A stretch of 64,000 bases of DNA from Corynebacterium hindlerae. GTDB lineage: Bacteria > Actinomycetota > Actinomycetes > Mycobacteriales > Mycobacteriaceae. Below the pieces are notes generated by a model, which had not been told where the DNA came from, made no database searches, and saw nothing but the letters and a program-made list of their open reading frames with translations. The stretch is from positions 310,001-374,000 of the forward strand of contig NZ_CP059833.1 in the NCBI RefSeq assembly GCF_014117265.1. Direction: 5' to 3'. The translations under genes and the position numbers were made by a program. Below are positions 33,098 to 59,650 of this stretch, piece by piece (the first letter of the stretch is position 1; the number at the start of each line of letters is the position of its first letter).

Positions 33098-33184
33098 CCC
33101 CGACATTACCCTCCCGAAGTTCGGGGTTTTTGGGGTGATTTTGGGGTGATTTTGGTGCATTGTCGGGGGCATAATGTCGGGGGG
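33098..33184. repeat. Intergenic repeat unit 1 (GACATTAC family)
   Basis: The 387-bp gap 33022-33408 between convergent genes contains two copies of a unit of about 87 bp and no gene. Unit 1 opens with a 30-bp block (33098-33127) that recurs exactly in unit 2. The block begins CCCCGACATTAC and contains CCCGAAGTTCGGG. Unit 1 closes with TAATGTCGGGG at 33172-33182, the inverse complement of the opening, so each unit can fold into a long hairpin. Confidence 0.75.
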
Positions 33185-33273
33185 CGTAATGCTTACCATC
33201 GCAGCATTCTCAACTGCCTCACTGGTCTCAAAGGTCGCTTTATCGCAACGTGGCCGGAGCCGTCCCACGTTCA

Positions 33274-33360
33274 CCCCGACATTACCCTCCCGAAGTTCGG
33301 GGTCAACAGGGCATTTTTGGGGCAACCTCGGGGGCGTAATGTCGGGGGCGTAATGTCGGG
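33274..33360. repeat. Intergenic repeat unit 2 (GACATTAC family)
   Basis: This is the second copy. The 30-bp block at 33274-33303 is identical to 33098-33127. The interior has diverged. The closing arm TAATGTCGGGG is at 33337-33347, with a tandem partial copy at 33351-33360. Both units have the same orientation, 176 bp apart. Confidence 0.75.
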
Positions 33361-41374: not shown

Positions 41375-42241
41375 ATGATGGCACGCGTCCTTAACGTCAG
41401 CAGAGCCGGCTACTACGCCTGGAAGAAACGCCACCACACCCCTGTGGCTGCATCTTCTCCCAGGGGGCGCAGGCTTGCCATCAGTGCCCGCGTCACAGAG
41501 CTTTTCACGACCAAGCACAAAGGGTTTGCCGGTGCTCGCACCATTTTTGCTGACCTGGTCGCTGAAGGTATTGACACCACGTTGTACGCGGTGCGCACCA
41601 TCATGGCGCAGAACAATTTAGTCACGAAGTACCGACGCAAGAAGGTACGCACCACCATTGCGGATCCTGACGCTGACCTGCGCAAAGACTACCTGCGGCG
41701 GATGTTTTATCCCCCAGTGCCCACCACGGTCTTGTGCGGAGATATTACGTACCTGCGCACCCGTGAAGGCTGGATGTACCTGGCCACAGTCATGGATCTG
41801 GGCACCCGGATGGTGGTGGGCTGGTCGATGGCCGATTCCATGCGCTCGAAGCTTGTGGTGGATGCCTTGACCATGGCCCATGATCGAGGCTTCGTTGCTG
41901 GTGATGCGATATTCCACTCGGATAGAGGCAGTCAGTACACCTCAAAGGTGTTCGCTGACTGCGCCGAAGAACTCGACGTTCGCTTGTCTGTCGGCTCTGT
42001 TGGCGTGTGCTTGGACAATGCGGTGGCGGAATCCTTCTTTTCCACGCTGAAACTTCACCTGCTGCATGAGCGCAAACAATTCGATTCCAAGCAGCACGCC
42101 CGCCTAGAGACACTGTCGTGGATTGAGACGTATTACAACCGACAGCGCCGCCATAGTGCGACCGGCCTCATTCCCGCTGAGGCGATGGCCGATTTCCTGA
42201 CCCCCAGCCCCGAATTACTCCCCGAGGCCCTTGCAGCCTAA
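41375..42241 (+). CDS. IS3 transposase orfB (rve/DDE integrase)
   Basis: The 288-residue part from ATG 41375 holds an HTH_21-like segment (VSRAGYYAWKKR) and the integrase catalytic core. The core has Asp in CGDITYL, Asp in FHSDRGSQY and Glu in NAVAESFFSTLK, so all three catalytic acids are present. The same frame is open back to the A7 run at about 41270, reading VEDDFFRVIYHFDKEG upstream, as expected for an OrfAB frameshift product. It looks intact, unlike orfA. Confidence 0.85.
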   Translation: MMARVLNVSRAGYYAWKKRHHTPVAASSPRGRRLAISARVTELFTTKHKGFAGARTIFADLVAEGIDTTLYAVRTIMAQNNLVTKYRRKKVRTTIADPDADLRKDYLRRMFYPPVPTTVLCGDITYLRTREGWMYLATVMDLGTRMVVGWSMADSMRSKLVVDALTMAHDRGFVAGDAIFHSDRGSQYTSKVFADCAEELDVRLSVGSVGVCLDNAVAESFFSTLKLHLLHERKQFDSKQHARLETLSWIETYYNRQRRHSATGLIPAEAMADFLTPSPELLPEALAA

Positions 42242-44547: not shown

Positions 44548-44653
44548 AGAAACCCGGGAAGCATTCCCCGGGTCTCGGCGCAAAAACACCCACAACCCAC
44601 CCGGAAAGCCTATTTCTCACCCGAGACCCGGATTTCACTTCCCGGGGATCCGC
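44548..44653. repeat. Nested inverted-repeat element, copy A
   Basis: This 106-bp intergenic element has two concentric arms: outer CCCGGGAAG (44553-44561) / CTTCCCGGG (44638-44646), and inner CCGGGTCTCGG (44568-44578) / CCGAGACCCGG (44621-44631). The centre holds GCAAAAACACCC. It is related to copies at 51.5 and 59.4-59.6 kb. It lies between the convergent ends of bioN and pspA. Confidence 0.8.
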
Positions 44654-44671
44654 ACAGCCCCAACCAAAAAT

Positions 44672-44698
44672 CCCCGAGCACCAACGTGGTGCTCGGGG
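44672..44698 (-). terminator. Intrinsic terminator of pspA
   Basis: CCCCGAGCACC (44672-44682) and GGTGCTCGGGG (44688-44698) form an 11-bp stem with a 5-base loop. On the minus strand it is followed by ATTTTTGG, an ordinary U-tract, 18 bp after the pspA stop. Confidence 0.88.
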
Positions 44699-44716
44699 AC
44701 GAATGGCTACAGGTGG

Positions 44717-45547
44717 TTACTCGCCACGCAGTTCGCGCATTTTCTGCGCGACGGCGTCGTCAGCTGCGGCGGATGGAGCTCCGGAGCCAGCTTCCAGGGA
44801 CTGTTGTGGGTTGCCGCTGGTCAGTTCGCCGGACATTTGGGCACGGATTTGTTCGAGGCGGGAGTGGCCGGCCATTTGGATTCCGGCTTGCTCGATTTCT
44901 ACCATGCGACCCTCGACAGAGTTTTGTGCGAGTTCTGCTTGGCCGAGGGCGTTGGCGTAGCGGCGTTCGATCTTTTCGCGCACCTGGTCCAGGTTCGGGG
45001 TGTTGCCGGAGGCGGTCAGGGAGTTCATGGACTTGATGGACTCGGAGACCTTTTCCTGCATCTTGGCCTGTTCCAGCTGGGACAGCAGCTTGGTGCGCTC
45101 GGCTACCTTCTGCTGCAGGGACATGGCGTTGCGTTCCACAGCCTGCTTGGCCTGTGCGGCCTGCTGGAGGGCTTGGTCGTGGAGCTGCTTGGTGTCTTCG
45201 ACGGACTGCTCTGCGGTAACGAGCTGCGCTGCGAACGCTTCGGCAGCGTTTTCGTATTCGACTGCCTTGGCGTTGTCGCCGGCGGCGCGGGCCTTGTCGG
45301 CAAGCTGCAGCGCCTGGCGGGTGTTGCCCTGGAGCTTTTCGATATCGGCGAGGCGACGGTTGAGCTGCATTTCTAGCTGGCGCTGGTTGCCGATAACCGC
45401 TGCTGCCTGTTGGGACAGCTCTTGGTGCTGGCGTTGTGCGTCCTCAATTGCCTGCTGGATTTGGACCTTTGGGTCGGCGTTTTCTTCGATCTTTGAGTCG
45501 AAGAGAGCCATCAGGTACTTCCATGCCTTGACAAATGGATTAGCCAT
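44717..45547 (-). CDS. PspA/IM30-family membrane stress protein
   Basis: A 276-residue PspA/Vipp1 protein, equivalent to mycobacterial PspA (Rv2744c, the 35-kDa antigen). Almost the whole chain is coiled coil (residues about 20-215), beginning with the amphipathic [19 protein letters not shown]. It supports membrane integrity. The Ala/Gly/Ser-rich C-terminus ends [14 protein letters not shown]. It lies next to clgR, which controls it in mycobacteria. Confidence 0.92.
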
Positions 45548-45636
45548 CGTGAATTAACCTTCCAAGTTTTGTTGTGTCAGCGGCCGCTAACTTTTTCAAT
45601 ACTCCCAGTGTACAGGTGACGCGTGGAAGTGCAGGG

Positions 45637-45936
45637 CTAAAAGTGTACGAACTCTTGATCGGCGGACTGGATTGCCATGGATCCGGCAGCTTCGATGAGG
45701 ACATCGGCGACGCTCACGCCAAGTGCGTGACACACTGAGGCGAGGAGTTCGGAGGACACTTCCTTCCGGCCGCGTTCCAGTTCGGAGAGGTAGCCGGGGG
45801 AAACGCTCGATTTTTCAGCCAGTTCGCGCAGCGTAATGCCACGGTCGGCACGGAAGGCGCGAAGTGCGGCGCCGAGGGCCTCGCGCAGTAGCGGTTCAGC
45901 TACTGGCTTTTCTAGTAGTGCAGTTTGAGTAGCCAT
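45637..45936 (-). CDS. clgR: Transcriptional activator ClgR
   Basis: A 99-residue XRE-type regulator with helix-turn-helix at about residues 33-55 (TLRELAEKSSVSPGYLSELERG). It activates clp protease and stress genes in corynebacteria and is itself a Clp substrate. The ATG at 45936 lies 5 bp after a TATAAA box (45947 to 45942 on the minus strand), without ribosome site, suggesting a leaderless mRNA. A GTG one codon upstream is less likely. Confidence 0.92.
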   Translation of the reverse strand: MATQTALLEKPVAEPLLREALGAALRAFRADRGITLRELAEKSSVSPGYLSELERGRKEVSSELLASVCHALGVSVADVLIEAAGSMAIQSADQEFVHF

Positions 45937-45941
45937 CACTG

Positions 45942-45947
45942 TTTATA
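45942..45947 (-). promoter_or_regulatory. -10 box of clgR, leaderless candidate
   Basis: TATAAA on the minus strand ends 5 bp before the clgR ATG, inside the 28-bp gap to cinA. clgR can thus be transcribed independently of pgsA-cinA. Confidence 0.5.
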
Positions 45948-45964
45948 ACGCGTGGGGGACGTTT

Positions 45965-46483
45965 TTAGTTCCCGGCGAGGATATTTTCCAGCGTTTCGAT
46001 CGCAAAATTGGCGCTGTGCTGGCAAATTTCTACTCGATCCCCGTCCACGACCTCTTCTGGTTCTGTGGCTCCAGGGCGCAGCGCCCAGCGAGTGTGTCCT
46101 TCTGGGAGCACCCGAATGCTTTTGGATCCCTCGGGCCCTGCAATGCCAAGCCACACGACACCCACCGGGTTGTCTTCCTGCAGTGCTGGCCCCGCCACAC
46201 CCGTCAGGGCGAGTGCCCAGTCAGTGCCGAGCTTTTCTCGCGTCCCCACTGCCATGGCTTCGGCACACTCCGGGGAAACGGCGCCATGGTCGTCGATAAG
46301 CTGCGCTGGCACGCCCGCCAGCTGCGTCTTCAGCTCGCTGGAGTAGGTGACGAAGCCGCCGACGAACAGCTCGCTGGCGCCGGGCTGCGCCGCAATTAAC
46401 GACGCCAACCTGCCCGCCGTCAAGGACTCACAGGTGGAAAGCGTTTGCCTGCGTTCGGTCAAAGTGGTGAGGAAATTAGCCAC
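45965..46483 (-). CDS. cinA: CinA C-terminal-domain nicotinamide-nucleotide amidase
   Basis: A 172-residue protein containing only the CinA C-terminal (PncC, nicotinamide-nucleotide amidase) domain, which deamidates NMN in the salvage pathway. STCESLTAGRLAS and ALTGVAGP are the active-site blocks. The N-terminal domain of long CinA proteins is absent, as is usual in actinobacteria. Its start overlaps the pgsA end by 8 bp. Confidence 0.92.
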   Translation of the reverse strand: MANFLTTLTERRQTLSTCESLTAGRLASLIAAQPGASELFVGGFVTYSSELKTQLAGVPAQLIDDHGAVSPECAEAMAVGTREKLGTDWALALTGVAGPALQEDNPVGVVWLGIAGPEGSKSIRVLPEGHTRWALRPGATEPEEVVDGDRVEICQHSANFAIETLENILAGN

Positions 46484-47039
46484 GGTTTTCCTTTCGCGAG
46501 TCCAACAAGTACTGCACGCCGGTCACCACGGTGACCGCCACTGCTGCCAGCATAACCAACCACACCGGCAGATCGGCCCACGAAGGTAGCGGCATGAGGT
46601 ACAACGCGATAGCGAGCGTTTGCAGGGTCGTCTTGATTTTCCCACCCTTGGACGCCGGAACCACCTTGCCATGGCGCAGCTGGATCATCCGCCAGAAGGT
46701 GATGCCAAGCTCTCGGAAGATGATCACGACGGTGACCCACACGGGCAGTGCCCCGACGATGTTCAGCGACACGAAGGCGGCGATCATCAGGGCTTTGTCC
46801 GCGATCGGGTCGGCGATCTTGCCGAAGTCGGTGATCAGGTTGTGTTTGCGGGCAATATCGCCATCCAGTTTGTCCGTGATCATCAACGCGACGAAGCACC
46901 CGAAAGACCACCACATCCATTTGTGGTCTGTGTTATCAGCGCGCAGAACTAGCCATACAAATACCGGCACCGCGATAATGCGCAGGCTGGTTAGCACATT
47001 GGGCACATTCCAATTGGACGTCTTTTGATCACCACTCAC
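46476..47039 (-). CDS. pgsA: CDP-diacylglycerol-glycerol-3-phosphate phosphatidyltransferase
   Basis: A 187-residue integral-membrane enzyme making phosphatidylglycerol phosphate. The CDP-alcohol transferase signature D-x2-DG-x2-AR-x8-G-x3-D-x3-D is complete at Asp56, Asp59, Gly60, Ala63, Arg64, Gly73, Asp77 and Asp81. Four or five helices surround it. It heads the pgsA-cinA unit. Confidence 0.95.
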   Translation of the reverse strand: MSGDQKTSNWNVPNVLTSLRIIAVPVFVWLVLRADNTDHKWMWWSFGCFVALMITDKLDGDIARKHNLITDFGKIADPIADKALMIAAFVSLNIVGALPVWVTVVIIFRELGITFWRMIQLRHGKVVPASKGGKIKTTLQTLAIALYLMPLPSWADLPVWLVMLAAVAVTVVTGVQYLLDSRKENRG

Positions 47040-47069
47040 AAGGCAACACCATACACGGGTTATTCCACC

Positions 47070-47075
47070 TAGACT
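47070..47075 (+). promoter_or_regulatory. -10 box of the YCII gene, leaderless candidate
   Basis: TAGACT ends 7 bp before the ATG at 47083. The only purine run (aaggg) is too close to the ATG to act as a ribosome site. Confidence 0.4.
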
Positions 47076-47082
47076 AAGGGCT

Positions 47083-47373
47083 ATGAAATACTTTGCCGTT
47101 CACTACCGCTACCCCGCCGACTCCGAAGACATCGCCCGCGTGCGTCCCGTCCATCGGGAATTCCTCGCTACGTTGAAAGAGCAAGGCGCTCTCGTTGGCT
47201 CGGGCCCCTTCCTCGACAATACTGGTGGCGCGTTGATCATCATCCGGCTCCCGGAGCCAGCTACCTGCGCCGACGCCGAGCAGCTCATGGATAAGGACCC
47301 CTTCACATTGGAAGGGGTCCTTGATGGGCGCGAGATCCGGGAGTGGAACCCGGTTCTCAATGTGTTTAGCTAA
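47083..47373 (+). CDS. YCII-family protein
   Basis: A 96-residue YCII (dimeric ferredoxin-like) protein. The family pattern is seen in MKYFAVHYRYP, the conserved His of VRPVHREFL and the GPFLDNTGGALII block. Family members may be enzymes or chaperone-like, and the role here is unknown. Its end overlaps the TerC gene by 4 bp convergently. Confidence 0.85.
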   Translation: MKYFAVHYRYPADSEDIARVRPVHREFLATLKEQGALVGSGPFLDNTGGALIIIRLPEPATCADAEQLMDKDPFTLEGVLDGREIREWNPVLNVFS

Positions 47374-48419
47374 CGCTCGTCCTCGTAAACCTGCTTTGCC
47401 GGGTTCCAGTTTGGCATGACGCCACCTTGGGCTTCGTCACGCTTCGTCTTGAGGATGGAGGCGCCCGCGGTGATCGCGAGGACGCTGACGATTACCAGCA
47501 ATGACGCCAGCGTTGGAATTTCTGGCACGTGCACGTTTTCGCCACCGTTGATGAACGGCAGGTTGTTTTCGTGCAGCGCGTGCAGGACAAGCTTGACGCC
47601 AATGAAGCCGAGGATGATGGCCAAGCCGTACGGCAGGTACACCAGGCGGTCGATGAGGCCATCGAGGAGGAAGTACATCTGACGCAGGCCGAGCAACGCG
47701 AAAGCATTGGCCGTGAACACAATGTACGCCTCCTGGGTGATGCCGTAGATAGCTGGGATGGAGTCTAGCGCGAACATCACGTCGACCATGCCGATAGCAA
47801 CGAGGCAGACAAACAGCGGGGTGAGGGCACGCTTTCCGTTGACCCGGACAGACAACTTGTCGCTCTCGTAGCTTGGGGTGACATGGATGACCTTGCGCAG
47901 GGTTTTGATCACCCACATATCGGAAGGGTCCGTCTCTGGCTGATCAGACATCTCATCGATGATCAGCTTCACGGCCGTGTACAGGATGAACAGACCAAAC
48001 AGGTAGAACACGTCCGACCACGCGTTGATTACCGCGGCACCCAGCAGGATGAACACCAGGCGGAAAATCAGCGCCAACACGATACCGATCAGCAGCACCT
48101 TCTGCTGGAACTTACGGGGCACCTTGAACGAGCCCATGATGAGAGCGAACATGAACAGGTTATCCACACTGAGCGCCAGTTCCGTGACGTAGCCGGTGAA
48201 GAATTCCATGCCGTGCTGATGCGGGTTGCCCGGTTCGCTCCAGGTGAACCACAAGAAAATGCCAAAGATGGTAGACAGCGCCATGTAGAACGCCATCCAG
48301 TAGGCGGACTCTTTCATCGTCGGCTCGTGCGGCTTGCGCACGTGTGAATAAAAGTCGAATACGAATAGCCCAAGCACCACCAGTCCGGTGATGCTCCAGG
48401 TAAGCAAATTAACTTCCAT
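47370..48419 (-). CDS. TerC-family membrane protein (probable Mn2+ exporter)
   Basis: A 349-residue TerC/Alx-type protein with about nine helices. The acidic metal-site helices GYVTELALSVDNLFMFALI and GMVDVMFALDSIPAIYG are typical. Such proteins export manganese, fitting the yybP-ykoY-type riboswitch in the leader. The ATG at 48419 has GGAGG in the terminator stem 13 bp upstream. The longer frame opening reads through the leader RNA and is rejected. Confidence 0.92.
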   Translation of the reverse strand: MEVNLLTWSITGLVVLGLFVFDFYSHVRKPHEPTMKESAYWMAFYMALSTIFGIFLWFTWSEPGNPHQHGMEFFTGYVTELALSVDNLFMFALIMGSFKVPRKFQQKVLLIGIVLALIFRLVFILLGAAVINAWSDVFYLFGLFILYTAVKLIIDEMSDQPETDPSDMWVIKTLRKVIHVTPSYESDKLSVRVNGKRALTPLFVCLVAIGMVDVMFALDSIPAIYGITQEAYIVFTANAFALLGLRQMYFLLDGLIDRLVYLPYGLAIILGFIGVKLVLHALHENNLPFINGGENVHVPEIPTLASLLVIVSVLAITAGASILKTKRDEAQGGVMPNWNPAKQVYEDER

Positions 48420-48424
48420 GCAAA

Positions 48425-48467
48425 AGACCTCCGGTCTTATCGGTTGAACGAAAATGACCGGAGGTCT
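48425..48467 (-). terminator. Riboswitch terminator before terC
   Basis: On the minus strand AGACCTCCGGTC (48467 to 48456) and GACCGGAGGTCT (48436 to 48425) form a perfect 12-bp stem with a 19-base loop, followed by TTT. The GGAGG that would serve as ribosome site lies inside the 3' arm. Confidence 0.85.
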
Positions 48468-48573
48468 CCCCCGCCCGCTCAGCGCGCTGTAGCGGGTGGC
48501 ACGACCGGGAGCCCGCGAGAGGGGCTGCCGTGCTGACGATCTGTGCCGACTAGGGTGGGGTACTCCCCTCCAA
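48460..48573 (-). promoter_or_regulatory. yybP-ykoY (manganese) riboswitch aptamer
   Basis: On the minus strand the leader shows GGAGGGGAGTA (48571 to 48561) and CGTCAGCACG (48538 to 48529), the two most conserved stretches of the yybP-ykoY class. Helices GCACG/CGTGC, AGCCC/GGGCT and AGCGGG/CCCGCT follow. The closing GGAGG (48571-48567) can pair with CCTCC (48464-48460), which is also the 5' arm of the terminator. Mn2+ would favour the aptamer and allow terC expression. Class assignment is by motif and context only. Confidence 0.78.
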
Positions 48574-48623
48574 GACAAAGCCCTACTTTAGCCTATTGAG
48601 GGTCCCAGAGCACAACACACGCT

Positions 48624-51404
48624 CTAGAACACGCCACCGTTAGGGTTTGCCTCGACCACGGTGACGTCGTCCTCCTCCTTCGGGGCTTCTGCCGGGTCGG
48701 CGCCCTTGAGCATCCAGAGAATAGTGTCCAGCTCTTCCGGTTTCACCAGAACCTCACGGGCCTTGGAACCTTCGGATGGGCCAACCACGCCACGGGTTTC
48801 CATGAGGTCCATCAGGCGGCCCGCCTTGGCAAAGCCGATGCGCAGCTTGCGCTGCAGCATGGAGGTGGATCCGTGCTGCGAGGTGACCACAATTTCCACT
48901 GCTGCCAGGAGGTCTTCCAGATCGTTGCCGATTTCCTCGTCGATCTCCTTCTTCTCGCCTGCCTTCTCCTCAGTCACGCCTTCGGTGTAGTTCGGCTCCG
49001 CTTGGTCCTTAGCCGCTTCAACCACCGCTTGCACTTCTTCATCCGTGACGAAGGCACCCTGCATGCGCACCGGGCGGCCACCCTGTGGGATGAACAGCCC
49101 GTCGCCCATGCCGATGAGTTTCTCTGCGCCACCCTGGTCCAGGATGACTCGGGAGTCCGTGAGGGATGAAGTGGCGAAGGCGAGACGGGAAGGCACGTTG
49201 GTCTTAATCAGACCGGTAACCACATCCACAGATGGGCGCTGGGTTGCCAGCACCAGGTGAATACCGGCTGCACGCGCCTTCTGGGTGATGCGGACGATGG
49301 ATTCTTCAATTTCCTTCGGTGCCGTCATCATCAGGTCGGCGAGCTCGTCTACCACACACACGATGAATGGGTACGGACGGTATTCCCGCTCAGAGCCTGG
49401 AGGTGCGGTGATCTCACCCGAAGCGACCTTGCGGTTGTAGTCCTTAATGTGGCGCACACGCGCGGACTTCATGTCCATGTAGCGCTGTTCCATCTCCTCC
49501 ACCAGCCAGTTCAGTGCGGCAGCGGCTTTCTTTGGCTGGGTGATGATCGGCGTGATCAGGTGCGGGATGCCTTCGTATGGGGTCAGTTCCACCATCTTCG
49601 GGTCCACTAGGATCAGGCGCACTTCGTCCGGGGTAGCGCGGGTGAGCAGCGACACGAGCAGAGAGTTGACGAAGGCGGACTTACCGGAACCCGTGGAACC
49701 TGCGACGAGTAGGTGTGGCATTTTCTGCACGGAGTGGGAAATGAAATCGCCTTCAATGTCCTTACCGAGGCCAATGAGCATCGGATCATGGTTGGCCACG
49801 GTTTCAGGCGCATTGAGGACGTCGGCAAGCCGCACCAGTTCGCGGTCGGAGTTCGGCACCTCGATGCCGACGGCCGATTTACCGGGGATCGGTGCGAGCA
49901 GGCGCACGTTGTCGGTCGCCGCTGCGTAGGCCAGGTTGGACTGCAGGTTCGTGATCTTCGAAACCTTCACGCCAGGCCCGAGCTCGACCTCGTAGCGGGT
50001 CACTGTCGGGCCACGCGAGAAGCCCGTGACGACGGCGTCAACATTGAATTCCCGGAACACGTCAGTGATCGCTTCGATCATGCGATCGTTCGCAGCGGAC
50101 CTCGTCTTCGGCGGCTCGCCACCAATAAGCAACTCTGCAGCATTCGGGAGGACGTAGTTGGAGTCCACCTCACGTGGCGCCGGCGGCGGAACGTCCTTCT
50201 TCAGCTCGCTCTTAGGTACGCTGGCCTGCACCTTCGCGGGGTCAATGCCGGAGCGGGCGATGATGGCTTCGCGCATGGCCTCCCGGCTGGCGGCGACGGC
50301 ATCGGGCGCCTTATCGACGGCTGATGGCACCGAACGAAGCTGGACAGTAGCTTCGGGCTCCGGCTCGTCCACAACCGCGGGGAACTCGTCGGTATCGGCT
50401 GGCGCTGGTTCGTCGTAGAGATTTGCAGCGCGTGCGGGCTTCTTTGGTTTGCTAAACAGCGATGGCTGCGGATCGTCCTCTGGTTCTTCGTCCAGCGGGT
50501 AGTTATCGATCGGACGCGACGGACGGGGTTGGCGTGGCCGCGGGCTGCGCGCCATGGACTCGATTTCCTGGTCGGCGGAGCTGTAAATATCGTCGTCATC
50601 GTCGTCTTCTACGTCCACGTTGTCGCGGAATCCGACCGCGCCGATGATGTAGTCCACGAATTCCCGCACTGCAACGCCCGTGACCTGCAGTGCGCCGTAG
50701 ATAATGACGAGTGCCAAGATCGGGATAGCCAGGTAAGCACTAAAACCGGCTGCCAGCGGACCACCGACGATATAGCCCAACGCACCGCCAGCGGTCTTTC
50801 GGGCAGCCCAGTCAACAGGAGTTCCCGCGAAGATGTGCACGAGGCCGAGCATGCTCAGCACGATCAGCAGCGTGCCCACCACGACGCCGGTTTCCCGTTC
50901 TGGTTCTGGCTTGACACCCAGCATCAGGGTGATGGCCAAGGCAAACAGCGCGACCGGAAGCACTAAGGCACCTGCGCCAATGGTCAAGTGGGCGACATTG
51001 GCAATCCACTCCCCGACGGGCCCCGCGATATCGAACCAGACCGTCGCACCGAGCACCACAGAAAGCCCAATAAGGGTGAGGCCGATGCCGTCGGCGTGCT
51101 CCTCAATCCCCAGACGCCGTGGCGATTGCTCCTGAAGTTGAGGTGCGTCTTGATCGGGATCTTTCCGAGCAATCATTCGCGCTGTACCTCCAATGCCTTT
51201 AGCCGTAGCGCCGAACATCGCTCCCAGACCCGAACCCACAGCACGAAATGCGCTGCCGGTGCGTTCGTGGGACGTATCGGCAGCGCGGGAAGCGGTTCGC
51301 GAGGAAAGGTTCGCTGAGGATGGTCCTCTTCGCGAACCAGACTGCGGACCAGTGTTCTTCCGGCGCGCCCGGTTAGACGACTTCGGCTTGCTAGAGACAG
51401 ACAT
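48624..51404 (-). CDS. ftsK: DNA translocase FtsK
   Basis: A 926-residue septal DNA pump. An N-terminal basic segment is followed by four membrane helices between about residues 105 and 245, then an Asp/Pro-rich linker (262-400). The motor domain has Walker A GSTGSGKS at 569-576 and the RecA-like core (VVDELADLMM). A C-terminal winged-helix gamma domain (residues about 850-905) reads KOPS-type polar sequences. It clears the chromosome through the closing septum. Confidence 0.95.
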   Translation of the reverse strand: MSVSSKPKSSNRARRKNTGPQSGSRRGPSSANLSSRTASRAADTSHERTGSAFRAVGSGLGAMFGATAKGIGGTARMIARKDPDQDAPQLQEQSPRRLGIEEHADGIGLTLIGLSVVLGATVWFDIAGPVGEWIANVAHLTIGAGALVLPVALFALAITLMLGVKPEPERETGVVVGTLLIVLSMLGLVHIFAGTPVDWAARKTAGGALGYIVGGPLAAGFSAYLAIPILALVIIYGALQVTGVAVREFVDYIIGAVGFRDNVDVEDDDDDDIYSSADQEIESMARSPRPRQPRPSRPIDNYPLDEEPEDDPQPSLFSKPKKPARAANLYDEPAPADTDEFPAVVDEPEPEATVQLRSVPSAVDKAPDAVAASREAMREAIIARSGIDPAKVQASVPKSELKKDVPPPAPREVDSNYVLPNAAELLIGGEPPKTRSAANDRMIEAITDVFREFNVDAVVTGFSRGPTVTRYEVELGPGVKVSKITNLQSNLAYAAATDNVRLLAPIPGKSAVGIEVPNSDRELVRLADVLNAPETVANHDPMLIGLGKDIEGDFISHSVQKMPHLLVAGSTGSGKSAFVNSLLVSLLTRATPDEVRLILVDPKMVELTPYEGIPHLITPIITQPKKAAAALNWLVEEMEQRYMDMKSARVRHIKDYNRKVASGEITAPPGSEREYRPYPFIVCVVDELADLMMTAPKEIEESIVRITQKARAAGIHLVLATQRPSVDVVTGLIKTNVPSRLAFATSSLTDSRVILDQGGAEKLIGMGDGLFIPQGGRPVRMQGAFVTDEEVQAVVEAAKDQAEPNYTEGVTEEKAGEKKEIDEEIGNDLEDLLAAVEIVVTSQHGSTSMLQRKLRIGFAKAGRLMDLMETRGVVGPSEGSKAREVLVKPEELDTILWMLKGADPAEAPKEEDDVTVVEANPNGGVF

Positions 51405-51483
51405 GCCTCAAACTCTAGTCGCTATTAGCACTCCAGTCACATGCGCCACACCGATACCAGGCGGGTTTTGTGGCACTCCTGCC

Positions 51484-51589
51484 GAAACCCGGGAAGTGAA
51501 ACCCGTATCTCGGCACAAAAACACCCAAAAAGCACTTCTGCAGCCCTATTTCCACCCGAGATCCGGGAAATGCTTCCCGGGGATTCGCC
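51484..51589. repeat. Nested inverted-repeat element, copy B
   Basis: It has the same architecture as copy A: outer CCCGGGAAG (51488-51496) / CTTCCCGGG (51573-51581), inner CCGTATCTCGG (51503-51513) / CCGAGATCCGG (51556-51566). The inner G-C pair of copy A is an A-T pair here, a compensatory change. It lies between the stop of the TIGR03085 gene and the ftsK start. Confidence 0.8.
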
Positions 51590-55998: not shown

Positions 55999-56970
<972 letters not shown>

Positions 56971-59392: not shown

Positions 59393-59492
59393 GCAAACTC
59401 GAGACCTGGAACTCGAGTCTCGGTGAATAAAACCCACTTTTTGCCCGAAACGAGCCCGCTCTACTCCCAGTCTCGAATTCCAGGACTCGCAC
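59393..59492. repeat. Nested inverted-repeat element, copy C
   Basis: A 100-bp unit. Outer arms GAGACCTGGAA (59401-59411) and TTCCAGGACTC match 10 of 11, and inner arms around TCGAGTCTCGG and CCCAGTCTCGA match 9 of 11. The AATAAAACCC centre corresponds to the CAAAAACACCC of copies A and B. With copy D it fills the pnp leader side of the 486-bp gap 59248-59733, where no gene is seen. Confidence 0.78.
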
Positions 59493-59550: not shown

Positions 59551-59650
59551 GCAAACTCGAGACCTGGAACTCGAGTCTCGGTGAATAAAACCCCCAAAAC
59601 CCCCGAAACTAGCCCGCACTACTCCCAGTATCGAATTCCAGGACTCGCAC
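59551..59650. repeat. Nested inverted-repeat element, copy D
   Basis: It is a direct repeat of copy C, 158 bp away, identical over the first 43 bases and nearly so at the end. The differences are in the central loop, while both arms are kept. Such loop divergence with arm conservation suggests selection on the folded form or recent duplication. Confidence 0.78.

Follow-up and report, generated by a model that had tools for sequence, protein, structure and literature searches.

A 94-bp palindromic repeat family with two arm classes and a fixed geometry in Corynebacterium hindlerae

The genome of Corynebacterium hindlerae contains a family of 72 full-length palindromic repeats, each made up of two inverted 26-bp arms flanking a 42-bp centre, which together form a core of 94 bp. 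The length of the core is fixed, the arms fall into two classes and a motif in the centre occupies slots 10 bp apart, while changes in the arms are not driven by pairing. The copies lie between genes with a bias towards gene 3' ends, and no member was recognised in congeners. We infer mobility, a protein and a DNA-bending role for this family, and see the chances as about evenly balanced that it represents a non-autonomous MITE/REPIN-like palindromic element, the arms of which would be read as duplex DNA by a putative protein acting in trans.

Two of the copies, A and B, had been described in an initial annotation of the window (the whole analysed stretch of 64,000 nucleotides) as a nested double inverted repeat, and both sit where they had been placed (Table 1). 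All the reported parts were found again, from the outer arms CCCGGGAAG/CTTCCCGGG and the inner arms to the common AAAAACACCC, and so was the difference between a G-C pair in copy A and an A-T pair in copy B. Each core is extended by about 4 bp at both ends. Aligned with each other, A and B match over 105 nt with an identity of 71%. Across the two copies, complementarity amounts to 92% between the A left arm and the B right arm and to 82% (34 nt) between the A right arm and the B left arm, as against only 77% between the arms of one and the same copy; the arm variants thus stand on opposite sides in the two copies. The neighbours of copy A are a CbiQ-like and a pspA-like gene in convergent orientation, those of copy B are ftsK and a gene for 199 amino acids upstream of ftsK. 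The centre motif is degenerate in copy A, where no match was found at up to 2 mismatches.

Table 1. Coordinates of the repeat copies in the window and of their parts
Feature	Position	Strand	Remarks
Copy A, type I element with 4-bp ends	44549..44650	+	core 44553-44646
Copy A left arm, type I	44553..44578	+	
Copy A centre, 42 bp	44579..44620	+	AAAAACACCC in common with copy B
Copy A right arm, type I, inverted	44621..44646	-	
Copy B, type I element with 4-bp ends	51484..51585	+	core 51488-51581
Copy B left arm, type I	51488..51513	+	
Copy B centre motif AAAAAGCACTTCTGCAGC	51527..51544	+	family AAATAGCANNTNTGCAGC, 1 mismatch, core offset 39
Copy B right arm, type I, inverted	51556..51581	-	
Type II element, core	59398..59491	+	same geometry, other arm sequence
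Second type II element, core	59556..59649	+	158 bp downstream of the first

With 72 copies in the host genome, the claim of a dispersed repeat family of palindromic or MITE-like form is borne out, and A and B are not its only members. Copy A as a query gave 74 matches in its own genome at E<=0.01, and a covariance model built from 35 copies gave 105 matches over both strands, which were reduced to 56 places. A scan for arm pairs over 677 kb of the genome yielded the 72 like pairs, at 84-95 bp. The core measures exactly 94 bp in 65 of these, 93 or 95 bp in six and 84 bp in one. Both arms are of type I in 48 copies and of type II in 24, without a single hybrid; two loose type I/II candidates were dropped, with pairing at just 11 and 9 of 26 positions. 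Arms are nearly always paired, solitary ones being found at 289822 and 2640105. The centres, by contrast, have diverged in sequence (mean identity 0.60 in type I and 0.42 in type II, with a minimum of 0.17). Local tandem copies and flank-sharing copies occur, and the same genome holds several unrelated palindromic families.

The 17 copies that have flanks in common allow substitutions and gaps to be compared. Substitutions per bp amount to 0.117 in the 75-bp flank, 0.087 in the core and 0.116 in the 54 inner bases, and gaps per 100 bp to 3.71, 0.30 and 0.71, respectively. In the same copies, gaps are therefore about 12-fold rarer in the core than in the flanks. The constrained property looks like duplex geometry, not hairpin base pairing.

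The initial annotation had proposed a repeat held by structure, with the G-C to A-T difference as a compensatory change, and this part of it did not survive the larger sample. At that pair (alignment columns 24/90) 19 of 35 copies have a non-standard combination, the others being G-C (10), G-U (4) and A-U (2). When right arms were dealt to other copies of the same arm class in 1000 shuffles, the 29 non-redundant type I copies showed Watson-Crick pairs at 82.9% of arm positions against 82.6% +- 1.1 after shuffling (417 of 1000 as high), and the 15 type II copies 79.0% against 81.3% +- 1.4. One sub-region of type I, arm positions 10-14, did lie above the shuffles, with pairing of 58.6% versus 50.7% +- 4.5 (54 of 1000 as high). 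In the 35-copy alignment, which includes related copies, the covariation score was 0.094 versus 0.083 +- 0.006 in the shuffles (20 of 500 as high), and counts of two-sided changes were not above those in the shuffles. Compensatory pairing as the driving force of the repeat is thus ruled out within each arm class, where copies do differ without keeping their pairing. Each arm is thus conserved on its own, as a sequence motif, and not through pairing with its partner. Between the classes both arms change together, which is a matching of motif type and not base-by-base compensation.

These results also bear on the possibility that the repeats are RNA elements, either bidirectional terminators or stabilisers of mRNA 3' ends, that act as hairpins in transcripts. 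Stable single-strand folds would fit such a role: as single-stranded DNA, the two strands of copies A and B and of a type II copy all have better folds than shuffled sequences (z -3.3 to -5.0), with 0 or 1 of 200 shuffles folding as well, and many copies end in CCCGGGTTTT. An excess of convergent neighbours and of gene 3' ends would fit it too. Restriction to intergenic regions, a point that the initial annotation had raised for checking, was confirmed for 71 of the 72 places, which overlap no called ORF. The flanking genes are convergent in 38 cases, tandem in 28 and divergent in 3, against 10.0, 35.9 and 23.1 expected by intergenic length, so that convergent gaps are favoured and divergent gaps avoided; 107 gene 3' ends face the elements versus 34 gene 5' ends. 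On the other hand, pairing is not kept beyond what the make-up of the columns gives, wobble pairs show no strand preference (52 G-T, 58 A-C) and the 94-bp repeats lack the covarying base pairs of a structured RNA. A scan for terminator-like signals (a GC-rich hairpin with a short loop, followed by a T run) found nothing inside A or B, and copy A has a separate terminator-like hairpin at 44670-44700; nor does a terminator need an exact length or 10-bp slots. In line with the earlier remark that no named family could be recognised, no Rfam family reached its gathering score; four further loci, searched at E<=0.1, gave three miRNA families, all of which remained under their own gathering scores. 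We regard an RNA function as quite improbable.

The slots in question are those of the centre motif, which was recognised in 54 of 72 copies as compared to 2 of 72 with shuffled centres. It stands at offsets 39/37 from the two ends in 45 copies, and in 3 more but for a 1-bp indel. In the other six the displacement is always 10 bp: two copies each have 29/47 and 49/27, a 93-bp copy has 48/27 and the 84-bp copy 29/37. The evidence for 10-bp slots comes from these six copies, and those at 1184703 and 1923583, with a common double inverted centre, may represent one event. Another way to read the spacing is that two of the three slots adjoin an arm. The motif was not recognisable in 18 of the 72 copies, which, at up to 3 mismatches, include 14 of the 20 type II copies with a 94-bp core.

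In the reading that we prefer, the mobile element read as duplex, the two inverted arms would serve as the ends that a DNA-binding protein recognises, and this protein would probably be a trans-acting transposase or recombinase. If they are recognised in the double helix, the arms have to keep a constant distance in helical turns. The centre motif would probably be bound by a protein that is accessory or bends the DNA and so helps to bring the ends together. Two arm classes on one geometry, with partly common centres, suggest two related specificities. A bolder version, which we consider rather unlikely, is that these repeats form a class of mobile repeats set by duplex-DNA geometry, in which both ends switch specificity together, in matched form, on the constant 94-bp frame and the accessory-protein site may lie at any of three positions exactly one helical turn apart. 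Such a class would imply that a paired-end complex is assembled over a very short stretch of DNA, and that the enzyme which mobilises the repeats in trans belongs to a family with no known link to repeats of this kind.

Direct signs of movement were sought at the ends of 51 non-redundant copies, where no target-site duplication was seen for duplicates of 3-10 bp at offsets 0-24; the best offsets had just 3-5 copies, about as expected from testing so many. An autonomous partner or transposase with the same ends was not seen among the arm sites listed, nor in the genes between two close pairs of copies. Likeness to integron attC sites, with boxes round a variable spacer in each arm, was considered and set aside, as the ends have no conserved cleavage motif and the copies are dispersed. 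The RAYT domain PF01797 has no match in the genome, while the same search was positive in 5 of 14 control genomes, which speaks against a RAYT/REP system. We also weighed true REPINs that move via single-stranded DNA, with a RAYT (IS200/IS605-like) transposase that either is no longer present or goes undetected. Inverted doublets at fixed spacing, rare singlets and an intergenic position are all as described for REPINs in PMC3116915, but in addition to the lack of PF01797 the type I consensus arms carry neither GTAG nor CGTC, pairing is not maintained and the 10-bp slots point to duplex DNA, which leaves this origin very doubtful.

Among the congeneric genomes searched no family member was recognised. 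With up to 2 mismatches allowed, the arm pattern of type I occurs in 36 of 241 other congeneric genomes at 1-3 sites each, against 3 of 242 genomes for a reversed-pattern control that is not neutral, since reversal alters the CpG content. The partner arm was absent at all eight congener arm sites examined (best 13-16 of 26 pairs; 40 random places gave a maximum of 17 and a mean of 15.05 of 26), and two exact centre-motif matches in congeners were without arms. Beyond the genus, the arm pattern gave two single matches in wider genome contigs, one in Kribbella and one in an uncultured Clostridia bacterium, and none in viral contigs; plasmids and phages searched with copy B gave no match. Literature searches listed no description of the present family. 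At the copy B locus the closest relative is 83% identical over part of ftsK and its intergenic region is syntenic, with the element absent. The junction is not clean, the C. hindlerae stretch being about 176 bp longer by our reading of the alignment, so the relative may instead have lost the element.

The copies might instead be owned by the host, as binding sites for a chromosomal protein that acts in topology, bending or domain organisation; they would then be retained for their usefulness and would have spread in ancient times or by gene conversion. Fixed helical geometry, 10-bp motif slots and independent conservation of the arms are what a protein-DNA complex would lead one to expect, the copies are found round the whole chromosome, and the BIME/RIP of E. 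coli offer a precedent, for which PMC2267715 states binding of gyrase and IHF to BIMEs. GC skew of genome segments places the origin at around 1.45-1.5 Mb and the terminus at around 0.1-0.2 Mb. A role in chromosome organisation was set aside, as neither orientation nor density of the elements showed a replichore or ori-ter pattern by eye; type II copies cluster asymmetrically at 369-451 kb and 1.92-2.13 Mb. Spreading repeats fit better with this lack of pattern, with the lack of recognised members in congeners, with local tandem and flank-sharing copies, and with the occurrence of several unrelated palindromic families in the genome. Host-owned sites therefore seem unlikely to us.

Most short palindromic repeats of bacteria are explained as single-stranded DNA hairpins moved by RAYTs or as RNA elements. 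The 94-bp repeats do not pass the pairing test, yet they keep their length, arm class and motif slot, and no RAYT domain was found in the genome. Should movement be shown, they would be mobile repeats recognised in double-stranded form, on which helical phasing could be tested cleanly; otherwise, the same geometry would suggest a chromosomal protein that is specific to the species and has some 70 sites. In both cases, the many other palindromic families make this genome well suited to studying how such repeats spread in Actinobacteria.

Among known systems, the REPINs of Pseudomonas fluorescens SBW25, as described in PMC3116915, likewise are intergenic inverted repeats at a fixed spacing (71 or 110 bp, here a 94-bp core), with a spacer length that is conserved above its sequence, doublets far in excess of singlets and at least two classes per genome. 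According to PMC3116915, REPINs are associated with RAYT genes and often show compensatory changes, whereas here the RAYT domain and a pairing signal are absent and the centre bears a conserved motif in 10-bp slots. The GTAG- and CGTC-tagged REPs, including RPE-4 and RPE-6 of Rickettsia (PMC3733652), resemble the present family as short palindromic units in inverted dimers, of which a genome holds several families and which lie between genes that converge or run in one direction; the CGTC families have no dedicated transposase, and the main text mentions neither Actinobacteria nor Corynebacterium. The tag at the foot of the palindrome is lacking in the type I consensus, judged by eye, and in some type II centres GTAG adjoins the inner arm, apparently not at the hairpin foot. 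Dispersed stem-loop repeats are described within the genus, in C. diphtheriae, in PMC2267715 (Cod-1, 140 bp, 17 copies; Cod-3, 170 bp, 23 copies; Cod-5, 74 bp, 35 copies), Cod-1 and Cod-5 being marked as intergenic; as described, their lengths differ from 94 bp, and no analysis of arm classes or spacing was found for them. In form the repeats of our family resemble MITEs, being short, non-coding and present in many copies with terminal inverted repeats, but differ in that neither target duplication nor autonomous partner was found and in having two end classes while parts of the centre are common. Finally, in the BIME/RIP of E. coli two inverted palindromic units surround the site of a bending protein. 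This is the arrangement that we propose here, with a putative protein and a putative site.

Copies A and B, the two palindromic repeats reported for the window in the initial annotation, are present as described and belong to a larger family. With copy A as the query 74 matches were found in the genome of C. hindlerae, the window representing positions 310001-374000 of its 2.68-Mb chromosome. A covariance model derived from 35 copies yielded 105 matches over both strands, which could be reduced to 56 places. Some of these carry other arms, here called type II, whereas A and B are type I; a pattern search of the same genome recovered 50 sites matching type II arms, mostly paired. The final set comprises 72 copies of full length, of which 48 belong to type I and 24 to type II; it leaves out fragments and solitary arms at 2477216, 2640105, 289822, 2175378 and 2093990. 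The arm classes are never mixed: pairs are always I/I or II/II.

The element consists of a 26-bp arm, a 42-bp centre and the inverted 26-bp arm. This core measures 94 bp in 65 of the 72 copies (93 bp in four, 95 bp in two and 84 bp in one), and is followed some 3-4 bp further out by AAA/TTT-like ends, beyond which no conservation was found. The arm reads CCCGGGAAG N5 CCCGGR TYTCGG in type I and GCGAGACCTGGAATTCGAGWCTCGG in type II, where TTTTT is among the variants found in mid-arm. In both classes, as judged by eye, a box recurs 14 bp on in direct orientation (CCCGGG/CCCGGR in type I, CGAGAC/CGAGWC in type II). The type I centre motif, AAATAGCANNTNTGCAGC, is also found in some type II centres, while others bear TGAATAAAA at 27 bp from one end.

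The initial annotation had proposed that the family is held by structure, which was not borne out: the compensatory pair it described is broken in 19 of 35 copies. Among the 35 aligned copies neither pairs with two-sided changes (7, versus 7.8 +- 1.3 in shuffled alignments) nor further pair types (25 versus 25.1) were raised. The covariation score was slightly raised and was equalled in 20 of 500 shuffles, a rise that relatedness of the copies can cause. When arms were re-dealt among 94-bp copies, with flank-sharing and duplicate copies removed (29 type I, 15 type II), the observed pairing matched that of the re-dealt arms. Since, in addition, wobbles showed no strand preference, every arm is kept as its own sequence. 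An RNA function remains as an alternative explanation.

The geometry itself is fixed. Among 17 type I copies with a common long flank, located in composite repeats of up to ~580 bp, gaps per 100 bp amounted to 3.71 in the flank versus 0.30 in the core, at similar substitution levels (136 pairs). The centre motif is present in 54 of 72 copies, versus 2 of 72 shuffled centres. It occupies one usual place in 48 copies, three of which deviate from it through a 1-bp indel. In the remaining six the displacement is always 10 bp; total length is unchanged in five of the six, the sixth being shorter by 10 bp. Given ~25 possible positions, the two non-usual slots would be hit with a chance of ~2/24 per independent event, so that the observed slots have a probability in the order of 0.001 to 0.00005 at three to four events, a count that is a matter of judgement. 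A host binding-site system remains as a second alternative. We favour a non-autonomous element: a protein binding duplex DNA would mobilise it in trans, and the centre would serve as an accessory site. The data show the geometry, copy number and location of the element and, among the genomes searched, its confinement to this one; movement, enzyme and bending are what we infer.

All but one of 72 listed places lack overlap with any ORF called by a custom ORF caller; 22 of these places are type II and 50 are type I, the latter including two partial entries. The neighbouring genes are convergent in 38 cases, tandem in 28, divergent in three and undetermined in three, versus 10.0, 35.9 and 23.1 expected for the first three classes by intergenic length (464 kb of background: the window and 20 stretches away from known copies). 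Without flank-sharing and duplicate copies the numbers are 22, 21 and 3, versus 6.7, 23.9 and 15.4. Copy A lies between CbiQ-like and pspA-like genes, copy B between ftsK and a gene of 199 aa without Pfam match. A single convergent intergenic stretch (405095-406031) contains three copies of type II along with one of type I, and two type II copies are found 12 kb past it (418084-418502), with common flanks at ~325-bp steps.

Among the genomes searched the family is restricted to C. hindlerae. The covariance model, with stricter filters and 33 candidates scored per genome, gave no match when run against 120 further Corynebacterium genomes. In 241 other genomes the exact centre motif occurs at two sites, both without arms. 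At up to two mismatches, type II arms have no site in these 241 versus 37 in C. hindlerae; type I arms have 102 sites in C. hindlerae and 1-3 each in 36 of the 241, and none of eight such sites examined had a partner arm. In G091, the closest relative at ftsK (83%), the syntenic region upstream of ftsK lacks the element.

C. hindlerae carries further palindromic families (see table): 400 kb free of type I and II copies contained 35 palindromes (8.8 per 100 kb), compared to five in 240 kb of G091 (2.1), eight in 80 kb of G238 (10.0) and four in 80 kb of G048 (5.0), the latter two being further genomes scanned for comparison. Since several palindromes in G238 and G048 look, by eye, less like repeats than like hairpins from coding sequence or terminators, and G+C is higher in both, the density contrast applies to C. 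hindlerae and G091 only. Three 59-60-bp palindromes with unrelated arms (stretches L166, L173 and L175) suggest that G091 possesses its own small families of palindromes. In one small C. hindlerae family the arms are built from the box GTTGGTAGAGA, which recurs at 14 bp. The composite start also occurs without a type I core, twice with this GTTGGTAGAGA family. Stretches with the common terminus TTAATTGTCAGACTACTTGTG directly adjoin the type I copies at 195110 and 305770. The tyrosine recombinase is probably a chance neighbour.

Repeats and recombination-related features in C. hindlerae (window positions where indicated, otherwise genome coordinates)
Feature	Location	Remarks
Copy A, core	window 44553-44646	type I
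Copy B, core	window 51488-51581	type I
Family of palindromes whose arms include CCCCGACATTA and TAATGTCGGGG	window 33098-33182, 33272-33349	22 members in sequence examined, mostly 72-88 bp
Palindromic family, arms around GCGTACGGATGGGA	window 56891-56960	51-62 bp; 13 members in sequence examined
Further small families of palindromes (five or more), unrelated arms	e.g. 306104, 550242, 405269, 2046582, 1676500	2-5 members each in sequence examined
Mosaic composite repeats, start GGGTTAAGTAGCAAAATGTGTGTCCGG	e.g. 576490, 641371, 1374511	up to ~580 bp; enclose 17 type I copies
CRISPR array	1797310 onward	29-base repeat GTTTTCCCCGCACCTGCGGGGATGAGCC every 61 bp; contains at least 43 palindrome matches
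Transposase with rve integrase core	window 41375-42241	IS3-like, from domains
Phage-integrase-type tyrosine recombinase, 281 aa	stretch L097 1849-2694 (~2131648-2132493)	a type I copy lies ~160 bp away

Finally, that the copies are true REPINs remains a third alternative. Known relatives of the element are the REPINs (PMC3116915), the tagged REPs (PMC3733652) and the Cod families of C. diphtheriae (PMC2267715), the last being set beside it by description and not by sequence.
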